DNA from: Nitrospira sp.
Lineage (GTDB): Bacteria; Nitrospirota; Thermodesulfovibrionia; Thermodesulfovibrionales; SM23-35
Reading direction: 5' to 3'
NCBI GenBank assembly: GCA_016873615.1
Contig: VGWX01000018.1
Location: 1 to 35,927, forward strand
DNA: 35,927 nt
This document shows positions 26,753 through 35,927 of the stretch, piece by piece. How positions within the stretch are numbered: the first letter of the stretch is position 1; each line of letters begins with the position of its first letter. The translations under genes were made by a program, and so were the position numbers. The notes under the pieces are model-generated. The model was not told the origin of the DNA. It searched no databases and saw only the letters and a program-made list of their open reading frames with translations.

Positions 26753-28629
<1,877 letters not shown>

Positions 28630-28633
<4 letters not shown>

Positions 28634-29391
28634 CCTGATACCTCTGCCTCTTCCTGTTGAATTTTTCCCTCTACCTGGAGTTTCTCAGCCTCTTCTGCTG
28701 CGGATTTTGACAAGGTTTCCTTGCCTTCCATAATAGCGTCGGCTATTTTGGAGGTTATAAGTTTTATAGCCCTTATGGCATCGTCGTTTCCGGGAATGAC
28801 ATAATCAATTTCGTCCGGATCACAGTTTGTGTCAACTATTGCAACTATCGGCACGGAGAGCTTTTTTGCTTCGGCAACAGCAATCCTCTCCTTTTTCGGA
28901 TCCACAATGAACAAGGCGCCTGGAAAGCCCGACATGTTCTTGATGCCTGAAAGGTTCTTTTCCAGTTTACCCCTTTCTTTCTCTAAGGCAGAGACCTCTT
29001 TTTTCGGGAGGAGCTCATATGTGCCGTCCTCTTTCATGGCCTCGATCTTCTTGAGCTTTTCTATACTCTTCCTTATTGTCGAAAAATTCGTCAGCATCCC
29101 GCCAAGCCAGCGCTGGTTGACATAAAAAGCGCCGGACCTTTCAGCCTCATCTTTTATGGCGTCCTGAGATTGTTTCTTTGTGCCGACAAATAGCACCGGC
29201 GCCCCTGACAGAGAAACTCTTTTTACAAAATTATACGCCTCCTCAAGACCTTTTACTGTCTTCTGAAGGTCAATGATGTAAATGCCATTTCTCTCACCAA
29301 AGATATATTTCTTCATCTTCGGATGCCATCTTTTCACCTGATGGCCAAAATGTACCCCTGCCTCAAGCAATTCCTTCATCGCTGCTACCAT
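28630..29391 (-). CDS. rpsB: 30S ribosomal protein S2
   Basis: [41 protein letters not shown]; start set at 29391 (RBS ggaggag upstream). Confidence 0.96.
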
Positions 29392-29758
29392 ATCTTTTTT
29401 CTCCTCCTGTATCTTCCCTCTGTTAACTCGTGGTTTCGCCATCCCGGCGCACAGAGGCAAAATGATGTATTTTCTGAAAGAAAACATGATCTTTCAGGAA
29501 TTGAAGATTAACACAAAAATAGCTTTTTTTGCAAGGGGTTGCGGTACAGGGGATAGGCGGTAAAATCTCAGGATAATATTGCAATTTGTCAATAAACCCT
29601 CTAATATTAATCATTTAGTAAACATCAAGGGGGAAATTTGGCGAGAAAATCGAAAACGAAACACGGACACATGCCGTTCCTTTTGTCTCGTCTCATACGA
29701 CACCTCAAAACCCAAACCCAAAAGATACGACTACGATCCATACATTTGAAGTAACTAT

Positions 29759-29969
29759 ATGGCATTAACACCTTACCACGCCAAATACTTTGCATACGAA
29801 CTTACACGCCAGTATTCATCCGACAGCCTGCAAAAACTTGTTGCTTCTTTATCAGGCGCAGGATGAGGTGGACGTAAGAAAGGAAAATCTGATTAATGAG
29901 ATAGAGTCGAGGATGAAGCAAAAGACAGAAACTAATGAGTTGTTTACTATACAATGGAAGGTAGTTTAG
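29759..29969 (+). pseudogene. Internally deleted remnant of a SNF2-type helicase gene (N-terminus fused to C-terminus)
   Basis: MALTPYHAKYFAYELTRQYSSDSLQKLVASLSGAG then, after a frame change, YQAQDEVDVRKENLINEIESRMKQKTETNELFTIQWKVV*; start and end resemble the two ends of large SNF2-family helicases. Confidence 0.6.
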
Positions 29970-29982
29970 AAAGGGAGGAAGT

Positions 29983-30099
29983 ATGCAAAGTCTTGGCGAC
30001 CATTTTGTTGACGTCAACAAAATGCTTATTCTCGGTTCCGTAGCTGGAGAAATAGAATATTGTCAACTACCGTTTGAGATATATAAGAGGAAGAATTAG
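29983..30099 (+). pseudogene. Remnant of a DinD/BRO-N-type gene
   Basis: MQSLGDHFVDVNKMLILGSVAGEIEYCQLPFEIYKRKN*: DHFVDVNKM-LGS-A-EI-Y pattern of DinD-like proteins, truncated. Confidence 0.5.
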
Positions 30100-30101
30100 C
30101 A

Positions 30102-31586
30102 ATGACGGATATGGAAATCCTACAATTATTTTTAGATGCACAGGAATGGCAGCTCTTTGAATGCAAAAGAGCCGCAATACAACCTGCTAAACTTTTAGAA
30201 ACAGTAGTTGCATTTGCCAATACCGATGGCGGTTTTCTTGTTGTAGGACTGGAGGATCCAACAAAAGCGCAAGGGGAAAAGAGACTCGTCGGAATCAGTG
30301 AAAATCTTAGCAATGTTTCAGATTTTTTAAAATTAATCGAAAAAGAAATTGACCCTCCGTTAGTGTTATGGAATAAGTTTGAATTAGATATTACTAATAT
30401 CAATAAAGCTCAAGATAAACTATTAACAGTAAACATCAAAAAGAGCAACGATTTGCATTCCTTAAAAAAAGGCGATACCTTTGTTCGACGTGGACACCAA
30501 AATATAAAAATCGGCTCATCAGAAATCATGAGGCTTAAATATGAAAAAGGAGCGATAAAATTTGAAAGTGAACTTTCGGGGGAAAAATTACTTGAAGACC
30601 TTGATATAGATTTACTTGTCACCTACAAAAGGGATACGCAAAGCGAAGGACTGGATAACTGGCAGTTTTTAAAAGACAATGGTTTAGCGGCAAGACTCAA
30701 TGGAAGTTATGAACTTACAAAAGCAGGAATCTTGCTTTTTGGAAGAAACCCTTCAGTCAGTCTTGGTAGCAAATGCGGTATTAAAATCTCTCATTATTAT
30801 GGAACAAAGCCTTCATATTCTGGTCAGCCTAATTTTGTCAGGCGGCCATTTACAATTGAGGGGCCGCTTTTACATCAAATAGAGAAATGCCTCGAATACT
30901 TTCGGAATGTTGTAACAAGCTCTCCTCCAAAATTAAGCGGAGCCTCTTTCAAACCCTCTTTTCTGATACCTGAATGGGCATTTCAGGAAGCTGTTACAAA
31001 CGCTGTTATTCACAGAAATTATTTTGTGCAGGATGACATTCAAGTCAGATTTTTTGATGACCGCGTAGAAATTGAAAGTCCGGGCAGTTTTCCGGGGCAT
31101 ATAACCATAAGCAATATCAGATCGGAAAGATTTGCAAGAAATCCCCTTATCCTGCGCACATTAAACCGATTTAAGTCAGCCCCAAATCTTGATATAGGAG
31201 AAGGTGTCGACCGTATGTTTAAGGTGATGATGGAACATAACCTCTATGAACCGTTATATTTCCCGCCATACATAAGACCAAATTCTGTGCTGCTGTTCCT
31301 TTTAAATTTACAGAGAATAGAATACTGGGATACAGTCAGCAAATATTTAGATGAACATTATTCAATTACCAATAATAAAGCAAGGGAGATTACTGGTGTT
31401 AATGATACCATCAAGATGTCCAGATTATTAAAACTATGGGCTATCAAGGGCTTACTTGAAAAAATCGAAAAGGGTTTCAAAGGTCATGTCTATTATAAGA
31501 AGGTGGGCGTTGATATCCCTAATAAATTTGATAAGGCATTTGCAGGGGGGGGTGAAAATGGAACCAAGGGTTCCTTATTTCCATAA
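30102..31586 (+). CDS. AlbA_2 (Schlafen-type) DNA-binding / ATP-binding regulator-like protein (COG2865-like)
   Basis: ECKRAAIQPAKLLETVVAFANTDGGFLVVGLEDP (AlbA_2), FQEAVTNAVIHRNYF (HATPase-like) ...FDDRVEIESPGSFPG. Confidence 0.88.
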   Translation: MTDMEILQLFLDAQEWQLFECKRAAIQPAKLLETVVAFANTDGGFLVVGLEDPTKAQGEKRLVGISENLSNVSDFLKLIEKEIDPPLVLWNKFELDITNINKAQDKLLTVNIKKSNDLHSLKKGDTFVRRGHQNIKIGSSEIMRLKYEKGAIKFESELSGEKLLEDLDIDLLVTYKRDTQSEGLDNWQFLKDNGLAARLNGSYELTKAGILLFGRNPSVSLGSKCGIKISHYYGTKPSYSGQPNFVRRPFTIEGPLLHQIEKCLEYFRNVVTSSPPKLSGASFKPSFLIPEWAFQEAVTNAVIHRNYFVQDDIQVRFFDDRVEIESPGSFPGHITISNIRSERFARNPLILRTLNRFKSAPNLDIGEGVDRMFKVMMEHNLYEPLYFPPYIRPNSVLLFLLNLQRIEYWDTVSKYLDEHYSITNNKAREITGVNDTIKMSRLLKLWAIKGLLEKIEKGFKGHVYYKKVGVDIPNKFDKAFAGGGENGTKGSLFP

Positions 31587-31935
31587 TAACTTCAATGGGT
31601 TAAGAGAATGTCCCATTTGCATATACGGCAAATTGCCCTAACAGCTATGTTTATTTACCAAAGGTGAGAGCAAATAAAATAATAAACCTTATTTTATGGG
31701 AAGTTTGGCTGAGTTTATTTTCCTGCAGGGTGGTTTTGAAAGAAAAGGCAACAAAAAGCGTATCGGCCCCGACAAAGGCGGGTATTGGGAAATTTTGTAT
31801 GGCTAAACCGCAGCGTCTTGAAGTCCATGGATAGGCGAGTAGAAAAAGCAGGGCTGTGAGCAGATGAGAATTATTTAAAACGATAATATTCTATAATTAT
31901 CACAATTTGTTATCTGCTTTAAGAAGGGGAAATAG

Positions 31936-34056
31936 ATGGACGGAGAATCAATAGATATTAAACAGGCAAAACTGCAAAAGCTGAAAGAGCTTTTTCCTGA
32001 ACTCTTTGCCGAGGATCAACTGGATTGGGAGAAACTGAAAGCGGCTTTTGGGGATGACATCAACTTTGCCAATGAACGGTATGTTTTGAATTGGGCAGGC
32101 AAGAGCGATGCCTTCAGGGTGTTGCAGCAGCCCACCACAGCCACATTGAAACCCGCGCCGGAAGAATCCTGCCTCACCCCCGCCCCCTCTCCTGAAGGCG
32201 AGGGGAGTTGGAATGACTTTATCAATAGCCCGACGCAAAATGTGTTCATTGAGGGCGAAAATCTGGAAGTGCTGAAGGTTTTGCAAAAAGCATATTACGG
32301 TAAAGTCAAAGTAGTTTGCATAGACCCACCTTACAATACAGGCAGCGACAGCTTTATTTACCCCGATAGATTCAGCGAGAAAAAAGAAGATTATCTGAAG
32401 CGCATCGGCGATAAGGACGAAGAAGGCTACCTGCTGAAAGAGGGCCTTTTCCGCAAGAATAGCAAAGACAGCGGCCACTATCACAGCAACTGGCTCAGCA
32501 TGATGTATCCCCGCCTGTTCCTTGCCAAAAACCTGCTTCGTGATGACGGCGTCATCTTCGTTCACATTGACGATAATGAGGTTCACAACCTGCGGATGGT
32601 GATGAATGAGATTTTTGGGGAAGAGAATTTTGTTGTTCAAATAGTTTGGAAAAAAAGAAGTACCCCACCTAATGACCAGATTATTGGTGCTAATCACGAT
32701 TACATCTTAGTATTCGGAAAAGATAGAAATAAGGTTGGGCTTAATCTTAGAAAAAGAAGCAACAAGCAACTTGAACGCTACAGAAATCCTGACAATCATC
32801 CTAAAGGGCCTTGGACAGCAGGCGATTTAATGGCAAACGTAAAAGGGGGGAGGTATGTTTCATCTTTATATTACCCGATTATAAATCCCAATACGGGAGA
32901 AGAACATTATCCTTCACAGAATGGTAATTGGCGATTCAACAAAGAAACCATCAAAAGGCTTTTAGAGAATAATGAAATTTTTTTTGGAGATGATGGGAAA
33001 GGCCGACCAAAGCTGAAAAGATTTCTTTGTGATGTTAAACAAGGAATTACTTATCCTACAATTTGGGATTTCGTTCCATTGAATACAAAAGGTTCACAAG
33101 AGATGTCAGAATTTTTGGGTAATATGAATATCTTCGACAATCCAAAACCATCTGGTCTTATTACAGAACTTATAAAACTTGGGGCAGATTCAGAGTCTTT
33201 AGTCCTTGACTTTTTCAGTGGTTCTGGAACCACAGCCCAAGCAGTTATGGAACTCAACAAAGAAGATAACGGCAATCGTAAATTCATTTTAGTGCAACTG
33301 CCTGAGCAATGCGATGAAAACAGCGAGGCTTATAAAGCAGGCTATAAAACCATAGCTGATATTGCTAAAGAGCGCATCCGGCGGGTGATAAAACGCCTCA
33401 ATCCACCTCACCCCTCAATCCCCTCTCCTTCAGGAGAGGGGCAGGGGGAGAGGTACGCTGAAAACCTTTTCAAAGGCGCTACGCCTGTATTGTTTAAGAA
33501 CGCCAACCAGTTGAAACAAAATAGAACAGAGGCAGAAGAATTGCTTTGGCAGGCTCTAAGAAATAGGCAAATAGAGAATTGTAAATTCAGAAGGCAACAT
33601 CCTATGGGGAACTTTATTGCTGATTTTTATTGTCACGAAAAGAAACTGATAGTAGAGGTTGACGGCGGTTATCACAACGAAGCGGAACAAAAAGAATATG
33701 ATGCAGCCAGAACACAAGCAATAAACGAGTTTAGTGTAAGAGTAATAAGATTTACCAACGAGGAGATATTGAACAGTTTACCAGAAGTATTGAATAAAAT
33801 TGCAGAAGCACTGAATGCTCCCTCTCCTCAAGGAGAGGGGTGGGGTGAGGTTGGATTTAAGGTGTTCAAACTTTCTCCATCCAGTTTCAAAATCTGGAGA
33901 GGCAATGAAATAGACAGTGAAGAAAAACTTACGCAGCAGCTTGATGCCTTCACCAACCCTGTCCGGCCCGGAGCCGAAAAGCAAAATATGCTCTATGAGC
34001 TAATGCTCAAAGCAGGACATATAAAAGGGGACAGGTACATTTTTGAAAAGTTATGA
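31936..34056 (+). CDS. Type III-like (Mod) beta-class site-specific DNA methyltransferase carrying an internal DUF559 nuclease-domain insertion
   Basis: FIEGENLEVLKVLQKAYYGKVKVVCIDPPYNTGSDSFIYPDRF (DPPY motif), LVLDFFSGSGTTAQAVMELN (FxGxG motif); residues encoded about 33454-33819 read TEAEELLWQALRNRQIENCKFRRQHPMGNFIADFYCHEKKLIVEVDGGYH...VRVIRFTNEEIL (DUF559). Confidence 0.9.
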   Translation: MDGESIDIKQAKLQKLKELFPELFAEDQLDWEKLKAAFGDDINFANERYVLNWAGKSDAFRVLQQPTTATLKPAPEESCLTPAPSPEGEGSWNDFINSPTQNVFIEGENLEVLKVLQKAYYGKVKVVCIDPPYNTGSDSFIYPDRFSEKKEDYLKRIGDKDEEGYLLKEGLFRKNSKDSGHYHSNWLSMMYPRLFLAKNLLRDDGVIFVHIDDNEVHNLRMVMNEIFGEENFVVQIVWKKRSTPPNDQIIGANHDYILVFGKDRNKVGLNLRKRSNKQLERYRNPDNHPKGPWTAGDLMANVKGGRYVSSLYYPIINPNTGEEHYPSQNGNWRFNKETIKRLLENNEIFFGDDGKGRPKLKRFLCDVKQGITYPTIWDFVPLNTKGSQEMSEFLGNMNIFDNPKPSGLITELIKLGADSESLVLDFFSGSGTTAQAVMELNKEDNGNRKFILVQLPEQCDENSEAYKAGYKTIADIAKERIRRVIKRLNPPHPSIPSPSGEGQGERYAENLFKGATPVLFKNANQLKQNRTEAEELLWQALRNRQIENCKFRRQHPMGNFIADFYCHEKKLIVEVDGGYHNEAEQKEYDAARTQAINEFSVRVIRFTNEEILNSLPEVLNKIAEALNAPSPQGEGWGEVGFKVFKLSPSSFKIWRGNEIDSEEKLTQQLDAFTNPVRPGAEKQNMLYELMLKAGHIKGDRYIFEKL
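32172..32207 (+). repeat. Palindromic repeat copy 1 in mod (in frame)
   Basis: CCTCACCCCCGCCCCCTCTCCTGAAGGCGAGGGGAG; CCCCTCTCC/GGCGAGGGG stem, 1 mismatch. Confidence 0.75.
33406..33453 (+). repeat. Palindromic repeat copy 2 in mod, left flank of the DUF559 insert
   Basis: CCTCACCCCTCAATCCCCTCTCC-TTCA-GGAGAGGGGCAGGGGGAGAGG; perfect 9-bp stem at centre. Confidence 0.85.
33820..33850 (+). repeat. Palindromic repeat copy 3 in mod, right flank of the DUF559 insert
   Basis: CCCTCTCC-TCAA-GGAGAGGGGTGGGGTGAGG; perfect 8-bp stem plus GTGGGGTGAGG arm (reverse complement CCTCACCCCAC). Confidence 0.85.
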
Positions 34057-34071
34057 CTACTCTGGCAATGA

Positions 34072-34155
34072 AAGATATCTTAGATAAAATCGCCTCTCTT
34101 AAATCAGCCCTTGATAAGTATCGTCCTTTTTCGGAGCATGTCGTCAGACAGTAGA
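34072..34155 (+). pseudogene. N-terminal remnant of a Fic-family gene
   Basis: MKDILDKIASLKSALDKYRPFSEHVVRQ followed by stop; resembles the N-terminal helix of Fic/DOC proteins. Confidence 0.45.
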
Positions 34156-34360
34156 GGGATTATTATCGCATTAGTGGATAATTACAGAGGTGTGGGTAGA
34201 GGAGTAAACATCAAATGCCTCATGGGGCGGAACAGTGGAGGCTATGAGATTAATGCCCCGATACTGAAATCATGGTTCGGATATTGGTAAGATTGGAAGA
34301 AAAAATTTGAAGGGCAAGAGAAAGAGGACAAAGAAGCTTTTGAAAAAATAGAAAGAAAAT

Positions 34361-34438
34361 ATGGCTTTAAAATCAGTTGAATCCCGGAATATGGAATTTA
34401 AATCCAACTGGCGGAACGATGCGAGAGGAAAATTTTGA
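34361..34438 (+). pseudogene. N-terminal remnant of a second AlbA_2-domain gene
   Basis: MALKSVESRNMEFKSNWRNDARGKF*: start resembles AlbA_2 'ESQxxEFKxxW' N-termini, then stop. Confidence 0.5.
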
Positions 34439-35541
34439 CTAAACAAACAACACCGAACAAATACACATCTCTGATTAAGCGCCTTGCTGAAATAATTCAT
34501 TCTGCAAGGACAACTGCTGTTCGACAAATTAACAAGGCTCAAGTGCTTGCATATTACGAGATCGGCAGAGAGATTGTGGAATTTGAGCAGAAAGGGAAGG
34601 CACGGGCAGGATACGGAGAAGAACTGATAAAGAGGCTTTCAAACGACATGACTAAAAACTTTGGGAGAGGTTTCTCAGAAATGAACCTCAGAAATATGAG
34701 GCGCTTTTATTTAGAATTTCCAGTGCAAATTCAACAGACACTGTCTGTTAAATCGTCGGGAAAGAACAAATTCCAGGCAGTGTCTGAAAAATCATCAATT
34801 CGTCAGACACTGTCTGTCGAATTCGACCCCCAACTCTCATGGTCCCACTACTGCGAACTATTGAGTGTCGAACATACCCTTGCCCGTTCATTTTACGAAA
34901 AAGAAGCTGTAAATAATAACTGGTCATTCAGGGAGCTCAAACGGCAGATAAACTCACAGCTTTTTGAAAGGTTGGCTCTAAGCAGAGACTCATCTGCTGT
35001 AATTAAGCTCGCGAAAAGAGGACATATTATCGAAACTCCTGAAGACGCTATAAAAGACCCCTATGTTCTGGAATTTCTGAACCTCAAAGAGGAAAATGTA
35101 TACACGGAAAGCAAGCTTGAACAGGCAATAATAGATAACCTTCAGAAATTTTTATTGGAAATGGGCAAAGGGTTTGCTTTTGTTGCTCGTCAGAAGCGAA
35201 TTACTGTGGGCAACCGGCATTATTACGTTGACCTTGTTTTTTATAATCGTATTTTGAAATGTACGGTTCTTATTGACCTGAAAATAGATGAACTTGATCA
35301 TTCAGACATCGGACAGATGAATTTCTATCTGAATTATTTTAAGGAAAATGAAAAAGTGAACGATGAAAATGACCCCATTGGTCTTATTTTGTGCGCTAAA
35401 AAAGATGAAGTCTTTGCAAAATATGTCCTGGGGAATTTGAACAATAAAATATTCGCTTCAAAATACAAGCTCGCACTTCCCACAGAAAAAGAGCTTGCAA
35501 GAAAAATCAGCGCACTACATCTTTTAGAGAACAATAAATGA
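34435..35541 (+). CDS. DUF1016 (YhcG-type) PD-(D/E)XK nuclease-domain protein
   Basis: LIKRLAEIIHSARTTAVRQINKAQVLAYYEIGREIVEFEQKGKARAGYGEELIKRLSNDMTKNFGRGFSEMNLRNMRRFY...LSWSHYCELL...YYVDLVFYNRILKCTVLIDLKI. Confidence 0.93.
   Translation: MTKQTTPNKYTSLIKRLAEIIHSARTTAVRQINKAQVLAYYEIGREIVEFEQKGKARAGYGEELIKRLSNDMTKNFGRGFSEMNLRNMRRFYLEFPVQIQQTLSVKSSGKNKFQAVSEKSSIRQTLSVEFDPQLSWSHYCELLSVEHTLARSFYEKEAVNNNWSFRELKRQINSQLFERLALSRDSSAVIKLAKRGHIIETPEDAIKDPYVLEFLNLKEENVYTESKLEQAIIDNLQKFLLEMGKGFAFVARQKRITVGNRHYYVDLVFYNRILKCTVLIDLKIDELDHSDIGQMNFYLNYFKENEKVNDENDPIGLILCAKKDEVFAKYVLGNLNNKIFASKYKLALPTEKELARKISALHLLENNK
34735..34816 (+). repeat. Three in-frame copies of a 13-bp palindrome (CAGACACTGTCTG) within the DUF1016 gene
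   Basis: CAGACACTGTCTG at 34735-34747 and 34804-34816; variant CAGGCAGTGTCTG at 34774-34786; offsets 39 and 30 bp. Confidence 0.75.
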
Positions 35542-35699
35542 GCTATAAAACTAAGGGCAGTGATTTATGTAAAGTAAAGGGGTAGGATTACTTAAAGAAA
35601 AGCCAAGTAATGATTTGCCCATTCGTGAGGAAATATTAGTTAAAACAATTGCAGAAAATACCCGACAGGTATTTTCTGAGATTAAACAGAGGAGGGATT

Positions 35700-35927
35700 A
35701 TGATAGCGCGATATACACGCCCTGAAATGGGAAGGCTGTGGGATCCTGAGAATAAATATCAGAAGTGGCTCGATGTTGAGATTGCTGTGTGTGAGGCATG
35801 GGCAGAGCTTGGCGAGATACCGAGGGATGAGCTGAAGGTTATCAGGAAAAAGGCAAGTTTTGATATCAGGAAGATAGATGAGATAGAAAAGGTCGTGAAA
35901 CACGATGTTATAGCATTCCTTAGCTCA
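35700..35927 (+). CDS. purB: Adenylosuccinate lyase, N-terminal part (runs off the window)
   Basis: MIARYTRPEMGRLWDPENKYQKWLDVEIAVCEAWAELGEIPRDELKVIRKKASFDIRKIDEIEKVVKHDVIAFLS; RBS gaggagg upstream; no stop before window end. Confidence 0.9.
   Translation, partial: MIARYTRPEMGRLWDPENKYQKWLDVEIAVCEAWAELGEIPRDELKVIRKKASFDIRKIDEIEKVVKHDVIAFLSS

Follow-up and report, generated by a model that had tools for sequence, protein, structure and literature searches.

The DNA methyltransferase gene examined here carries an in-frame DUF559 nuclease domain bracketed by palindromes, and the most likely reading of this insert is a mobile nuclease-palindrome unit that is tolerated in protein linkers and was inherited with its host gene. 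We give a probability of roughly 0.6 to the view that it is a member of a widespread class of small mobile elements composed of DUF559 and hairpins, that such an element entered a linker of the Type III-like methyltransferase Mod, and that the fused gene then spread. It seems that DUF559 is the gene of a mobile-element family so far overlooked, with its unit present in many phyla, multi-copy in some genomes and repeatedly located in restriction-modification (R-M) genes. The domain is common and still labelled 'unknown function', and palindromes of the triplex type have no known means of spread. Linking the domain to these palindromes assigns each a role that can be tested, including in E. coli K-12.

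The window analysed is a stretch of 35,927 nucleotides from a 2.9-Mb draft genome of Nitrospira sp. in 216 contigs. Its Mod ORF (31936-34056, forward strand) encodes 706 amino acids in an uninterrupted frame. Pfam searches identified N6_N4_Mtase, the methyltransferase domain shared with Type III Mod, at aa 124-443 (E 3e-35), and DUF559 (PF04480) at aa 521-626 (E 2e-34), the latter scoring 118.2 bits against a curated cut-off of 20.6. A preliminary description had placed a DUF559 insert in frame between two palindromes at 33406-33850. The open frame, the Pfam domains and two perfect palindromes bear out the insert itself; its exact ends did not hold and are better set at 33405-33851 (forward strand, 447 bp or 149 codons), where an outer 10-bp inverted repeat, ACCTCACCCC and GGGGTGAGGT, bounds the whole unit in the order ACCTCACCCC, hairpin, nuclease, hairpin, GGGGTGAGGT, in frame with Mod. 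The left repeat (33405-33456) consists of the tail CCTCACCCC, the hairpin CCCCTCTCC-TTCA-GGAGAGGGG (33420-33441) and a purine tail, and is read in the frame used as the peptide PHPSIPSPSGEGQGERY. It is followed by the nuclease domain (33496-33813, forward strand) and by the right repeat (33819-33851), in which the hairpin CCCTCTCC-TCAA-GGAGAGGG (33820-33839) and the tail GGGGTGAGGT are read as APSPQGEGWGEV.

Mod sequence resumes with GFKVFKLSPSSFKIWRG (33852-34053, forward strand). This C-terminal part is approximately 80-90 residues shorter than in the homologues L016 and L017, so the window's Mod may be decaying. A solo copy of the repeat (32171-32204), with the tail CCTCACCCCC and a hairpin at 32185-32204, is located in frame in the N-terminal part of Mod, and is common to L016 and absent from L017 and L087. 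The palindrome CCCTCTCC-N4-GGAGAGGG is perfect at 33421-33440 and 33820-33839 and has one mismatch at 32185-32204, compared with 0.09 palindromes expected per window from dinucleotide shuffles. These three are the only copies with 0-1 mismatch in the genome, and all are inside the Mod ORF. Of the different palindromes of this kind present in the loci retrieved, about half contain no stop in any of the six frames.

The window DUF559 has a predicted PD-(D/E)XK nuclease fold of the Vsr-like EDxHD type. All 13 residues that were invariant in a 44-member DUF559 alignment are present in it, including D53, E64-x-D66 and H70 (alignment A1 numbering), in agreement with the earlier suggestion that its catalytic residues are intact. 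The DUF559 profile matched the DUF559 protein 3hrl and the homing endonuclease I-Bth0305I (3r3p, E 1e-5), and the predicted DUF559 structure (pLDDT 77) was closest to 3hrl, then to 3r3p, and then weakly to Vsr (1vsr). I-Bth0305I is the nearest solved functional relative of DUF559. Locus L166 has an intein, located at VFDPT-C-GSGTT of a methyltransferase, with DUF559 as its nuclease domain, and a C-terminal intein model matched above its cut-off. The idea of homing-like behaviour, first raised from the window alone, gains support from this intein and from the fold of I-Bth0305I. Among the loci tested the intein model matched only L166, with no match in the window ORF. The L166 methyltransferase (L166:2282-4621) also carries palindrome-encoded peptides (ARGEGWGG).

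Comparison with Mod homologues identified both empty and occupied sites. L087 and L088 have neither DUF559 nor palindromes, and the refutation proposed beforehand, a DUF559 domain at this position in most Mod homologues, found no support. In L087, which is from the same bacterial family as the window, the junction without the unit is RVIQKIEKEKAEKPDLFDKSKLDLGFKVFKLS, and that without the N-terminal palindrome is PAPEES-VNFDTTEN. Within the genome collection the DUF559 domains nearest to that of the window are those of L016 (Bacteroidales), L017 (Nitrospiraceae) and L018 (Bacteroidetes), and all three loci have DUF559 and palindromes at the Mod site occupied in the window; the Mod frame of L018 is broken upstream of the insert. 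In the DUF559 tree these three group with the window in a single supported clade, which lies within stand-alone DUF559 of Bacteroidetes. Because the fusion is common to Bacteroidetes and another member of the Nitrospiraceae, it was in all probability inherited or transferred as an already fused gene, and the notion of a unique recent insertion in the window's genome had to be abandoned.

Synonymous divergence between the window and L017 was 1.26 for DUF559 and 1.15-1.18 for the flanks, and separate acquisition by these two genomes was therefore not supported. The dN/dS of DUF559 in this pair was 0.16. A dN/dS of this size, a dS close to that of the flanks and a single clade together point to a fusion that was inherited under purifying selection and has spread horizontally. 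Although L087 lacks the unit, its C-terminal flank is more similar to that of the window than is the flank of L017, and the site has therefore undergone gain, loss or recombination. Palindromes occupy the C-terminal linker of Mod in L016 and L018, and unrelated repeats occupy it in L017 and L087. Such unrelated repeats are read in frame as the peptides PVGAGLKPAPT and SEAKQS in Mod (L017, L087) and RHSRESGNP in HsdM (L267, L271). In the L016 genome all five palindromes of this type (L016:1630, 2932, 3344, 3557 and 6128) are within the Mod-DUF559 locus, four being read in frame as part of Mod, and palindromes here seem to travel together with the R-M locus.

Enrichment of DUF559 genes for flanking palindromes had been set beforehand as a test of the mobile-unit idea. 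Pyrimidine/purine hairpins were present within 200 bp on both sides of DUF559 in 55 of 127 loci, comprising 29/66 from many phyla and 26/61 from an independent Nitrospirota sample. Upstream hairpins were found in 37/66 and 33/61 loci, and downstream hairpins in 43/66 and 45/61, respectively. When the windows were displaced by 1-2.5 kb within these loci, there were 0-2 cases on one side and none on both. Control GIY-YIG genes had flanking hairpins in 0/24 cases, and Y1 transposase genes from the same genomes had a hairpin on one side in 1/22 and on both sides in 0/22. Hairpin density rose approximately tenfold within 200-400 bp of DUF559 (70 loci, many phyla), and approximately 15-23% of DUF559 loci had no perfect hairpin on either side. 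The hairpin sequences vary by lineage (CCCTCTCC, CCTTCTCC, TCCTCTCC, CTCCCTTT, ACTCCCCC) and keep the form of a pyrimidine arm and a purine arm despite this change. Together with the empty sites of L087 and L088, this enrichment supports the earlier proposal of a mobile unit able to sit in coding sequence without breaking it.

The hairpin and tail of DUF559 loci correspond to the intrastrand triplex motif that Holder et al. (2015, PMC4666352) reported in over 260 genomes, with a Y-arm, an R-arm and a third purine tail. That study reported no mobility genes near the motif, whereas here DUF559 is statistically linked to it. E. coli K-12 ycjD is a DUF559 gene, and a perfect motif of this type is located just downstream. 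Of 5426 E. coli genomes, 3365 carry the gene; the two ycjD-less strains examined have an efflux operon next to fabI and so offered no clean empty allele. We found no paper on the DUF559-palindrome link in the open-access literature.

Palindrome number and DUF559 were also compared across 296 Nitrospirota genomes. DUF559 was present in 28 of the 31 genomes with at least four palindromes and in 131 of 296 overall (Fisher 3e-8, shared ancestry ignored), and a reversed-pattern control in the same genomes showed no association. When two palindromes were subtracted for each DUF559 the co-occurrence was weak, being not significant at >0 and P 0.009 at >=3. Genome G084 contains 513 palindromes and 13 DUF559 copies. 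Its solo elements are REPIN-like inverted doublets, AACCCCACCCTCACCC-H1-spacer-H2-GGGTGGGGATGGGGTT, and several of its DUF559 copies are bounded by an outer inverted repeat, GGTTCTTTCTC...GTGGGTAAA, around whose inverted ends no target duplications were recognised. This resembles REP/REPIN sequences and their RAYT genes in the short tailed palindromes, solo and as inverted doublets, in the many copies per genome and in the gene flanked by them; the REP/RAYT gene, however, is a Y1 (HUH) transposase, and the gene here encodes a PD-(D/E)XK-type nuclease. A RAYT/Y1 transposase as mobiliser was not supported, with no match to Y1_Tnp in G084 and no Y1 gene of the control set having hairpins on both sides.

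In one Gracilibacteria genome a unit with DUF559 as its sole visible gene has undergone transposition-like spread. The genome contains at least six near-identical copies of it, which end in 23-bp inverted repeats (GGCATAATCTAAATTTTGGTGGA) and are flanked by target duplications of 8 bp (GAATATCT, TCCCGATT, GAGAATTC and others). Each of the 29 end sequences found there fits the DUF559 element, fits a 144-bp derivative that lacks DUF559, or is truncated at the end of a contig, and no gene other than DUF559 was seen between them. Target duplications of 8 bp with inverted repeats are typical of DDE transposases, and the Gracilibacteria copies may therefore be mobilised in trans. Ends and target duplications of the kind seen in inverted-repeat transposons and MITEs thus both occur in Gracilibacteria, whereas G084 has inverted ends without duplication and the window unit has its 10-bp outer inverted repeat.

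The search for other host genes interrupted by DUF559, proposed in the preliminary description, identified HsdR, HsdM, HsdS, Mod, type IIG enzymes and RecG. We defined as deeply embedded any DUF559 whose ORF extends for 80 aa or more beyond it at both ends; two samples gave 25 such copies, 24 in R-M genes (HsdS, HsdM, HsdR, Mod, type IIG) and one in RecG. Hosts were typed by Pfam in 20 cases and by junction similarity in five, three of which (HsdM) were also typed by homology. One embedded copy is the L166 intein nuclease. In the RecG case, from a betaproteobacterial MAG (L059:1693-4176), DUF559 and palindromes are in frame directly before the MSATPIPRSLAM motif. Two DUF559 clades in the tree consist almost wholly of R-M-embedded copies, and both have entered the HsdM linker between YHAWRG and PGFCKSA. 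Among 30 HsdM loci this linker was empty in most readable ones; six had a solo palindrome or two there, one had palindrome-DUF559-palindrome and two had the unrelated repeat RHSRESGNP. Because a single HsdM linker holds two DUF559 clades and the Mod insert is in frame, insertion is non-disruptive and occurs at recurrent sites, as in homing endonuclease elements. Since Mod and HsdM linkers also hold unrelated repeats, linker tolerance is part of the explanation, and the choice of site may reflect tolerance rather than targeting. The preference of embedded copies for R-M genes suggests a part for homing-type nucleases and their repeats in reshaping restriction systems and in yielding chimeric enzymes.

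Most DUF559 genes are stand-alone and located beside housekeeping genes such as tryptophan synthase, with the same palindromes. An R-M neighbourhood for these was not supported, as 2/70 neighbours matched ResIII and the top families, among the first 25 listed, were housekeeping. In several Bacteroidetes (L021, L027, L029, L040) trp genes are present on both sides of a stand-alone DUF559, suggesting a conserved site between trpB and trpA. In Pedobacter (L034, L038, L039, L063) the DUF559 ORF is joined in frame to the start of HisF via PPLGGGGG.

We propose an element family whose only gene would be the DUF559 nuclease and whose ends would be pyrimidine/purine hairpins with purine tails, REP-like and of the intrastrand-triplex type. 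Elements and solo palindromes would be mostly intergenic, and, as both the repeats and the nuclease allow read-through, they could also enter R-M protein linkers in frame. One unit would have been inserted into the linker that joins the catalytic part of Mod to its C-terminal part, probably in a Bacteroidetes-type lineage, after which the fused gene would have moved horizontally and reached the Nitrospirota genome. In a homing-like step, DUF559 would cut an unoccupied site or an extruded hairpin, and repair would copy the unit in. Comparison of sequences documents the unit, its association with hairpins, its spread and the R-M bias of embedded copies; DUF559 is presumably an active nuclease that promotes this spread, most likely in a homing-like way, and the Mod-nuclease chimera is presumably translated whole. 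More tentatively, DUF559 may act generally on triplex/REP-like hairpins, including those of E. coli K-12, spreading units, leaving solo palindromes behind and preferring R-M genes, with in-frame methyltransferase-nuclease chimeras as the outcome.

Other explanations were considered. Another enzyme might move palindromes and inverted-repeat elements alike, with DUF559 as cargo and linkers tolerating any repeat. The resemblance of the Gracilibacteria inverted repeats and target duplications to DDE transposons, the 144-bp derivative and the unrelated repeats in homologous Mod and HsdM linkers (SEAKQS, PVGAGLKPAPT, RHSRESGNP) are all consistent with this. However, DUF559, unlike GIY-YIG and Y1 transposase genes, is tied to hairpins in many phyla, DUF559 was the only gene seen between the Gracilibacteria ends, and purifying selection acts on the nuclease also in its embedded form. 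We regard such a passenger role as rather unlikely. Alternatively, DUF559 could be a useful R-M nuclease domain in a methyltransferase-nuclease chimera, which might then work as the single-chain R-M enzyme suggested in the preliminary description, with the palindromes as incidental linkers or as recombination joints that shuffle it among HsdR, HsdM, HsdS and Mod. The 24/25 embedded copies in R-M genes, the two R-M-embedded clades and the dN/dS of 0.16 are as this would predict, and the Caulobacter DUF559 protein VsrA interacts with cytosine methylation, causing DNA damage once that methylation is lost (PMC12907096). Against it, most DUF559 genes stand alone near housekeeping genes with the same palindromes, close homologues without DUF559 retain an intact Mod or HsdM, and the L166 intein is expected to splice out. 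The window's Mod is moreover C-terminally short and no Res gene is noted beside it, none being present among the ORFs listed for 28000-35927, as had been reported. A functional fusion is on balance improbable. Fusion of an unrelated intergenic DUF559 to Mod by misassembly or a recent random read-through might be suspected in a draft of 216 contigs. An assembly artefact was rejected because L016, L017 and L018, from other projects and phyla, have the same arrangement at the same site, and with their DUF559 in one supported clade, chance of either kind is exceedingly improbable.

The mobile nuclease-palindrome unit that we favour can also be set beside known systems. Like DUF559, I-Bth0305I (EDxHD, Vsr-like; PDB 3r3p) is a nuclease whose gene is inserted at specific sites and tolerated by its host. 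It is itself a phage enzyme encoded in a group I intron, with a long DNA-binding tail, whereas DUF559 units, known here from sequence, are domains of approximately 110 aa between palindromes, with no intron. Inteins with a homing endonuclease include the L166 DUF559; the window insert is without a splicing domain, and the DUF559 domain is therefore expected to stay in the protein. Rickettsia palindromic elements are palindromic repeats located in frame inside protein genes and carry no gene. The window palindromes share this in-frame location, but bracket a nuclease.

The neighbourhood of Mod in the window is of a decaying defence type, with a Schlafen/AlbA_2 gene upstream, short broken frames directly after Mod (34056-34540) and an intact DUF1016/YhcG nuclease gene downstream at 34435-35541. 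A second DUF559 in the same genome (L002:1390-2000), with a frame of 89 aa, is seemingly truncated, and adjoins repeats of the CCCCTCCC/GGGAGGGG type and a partly duplicated flank.
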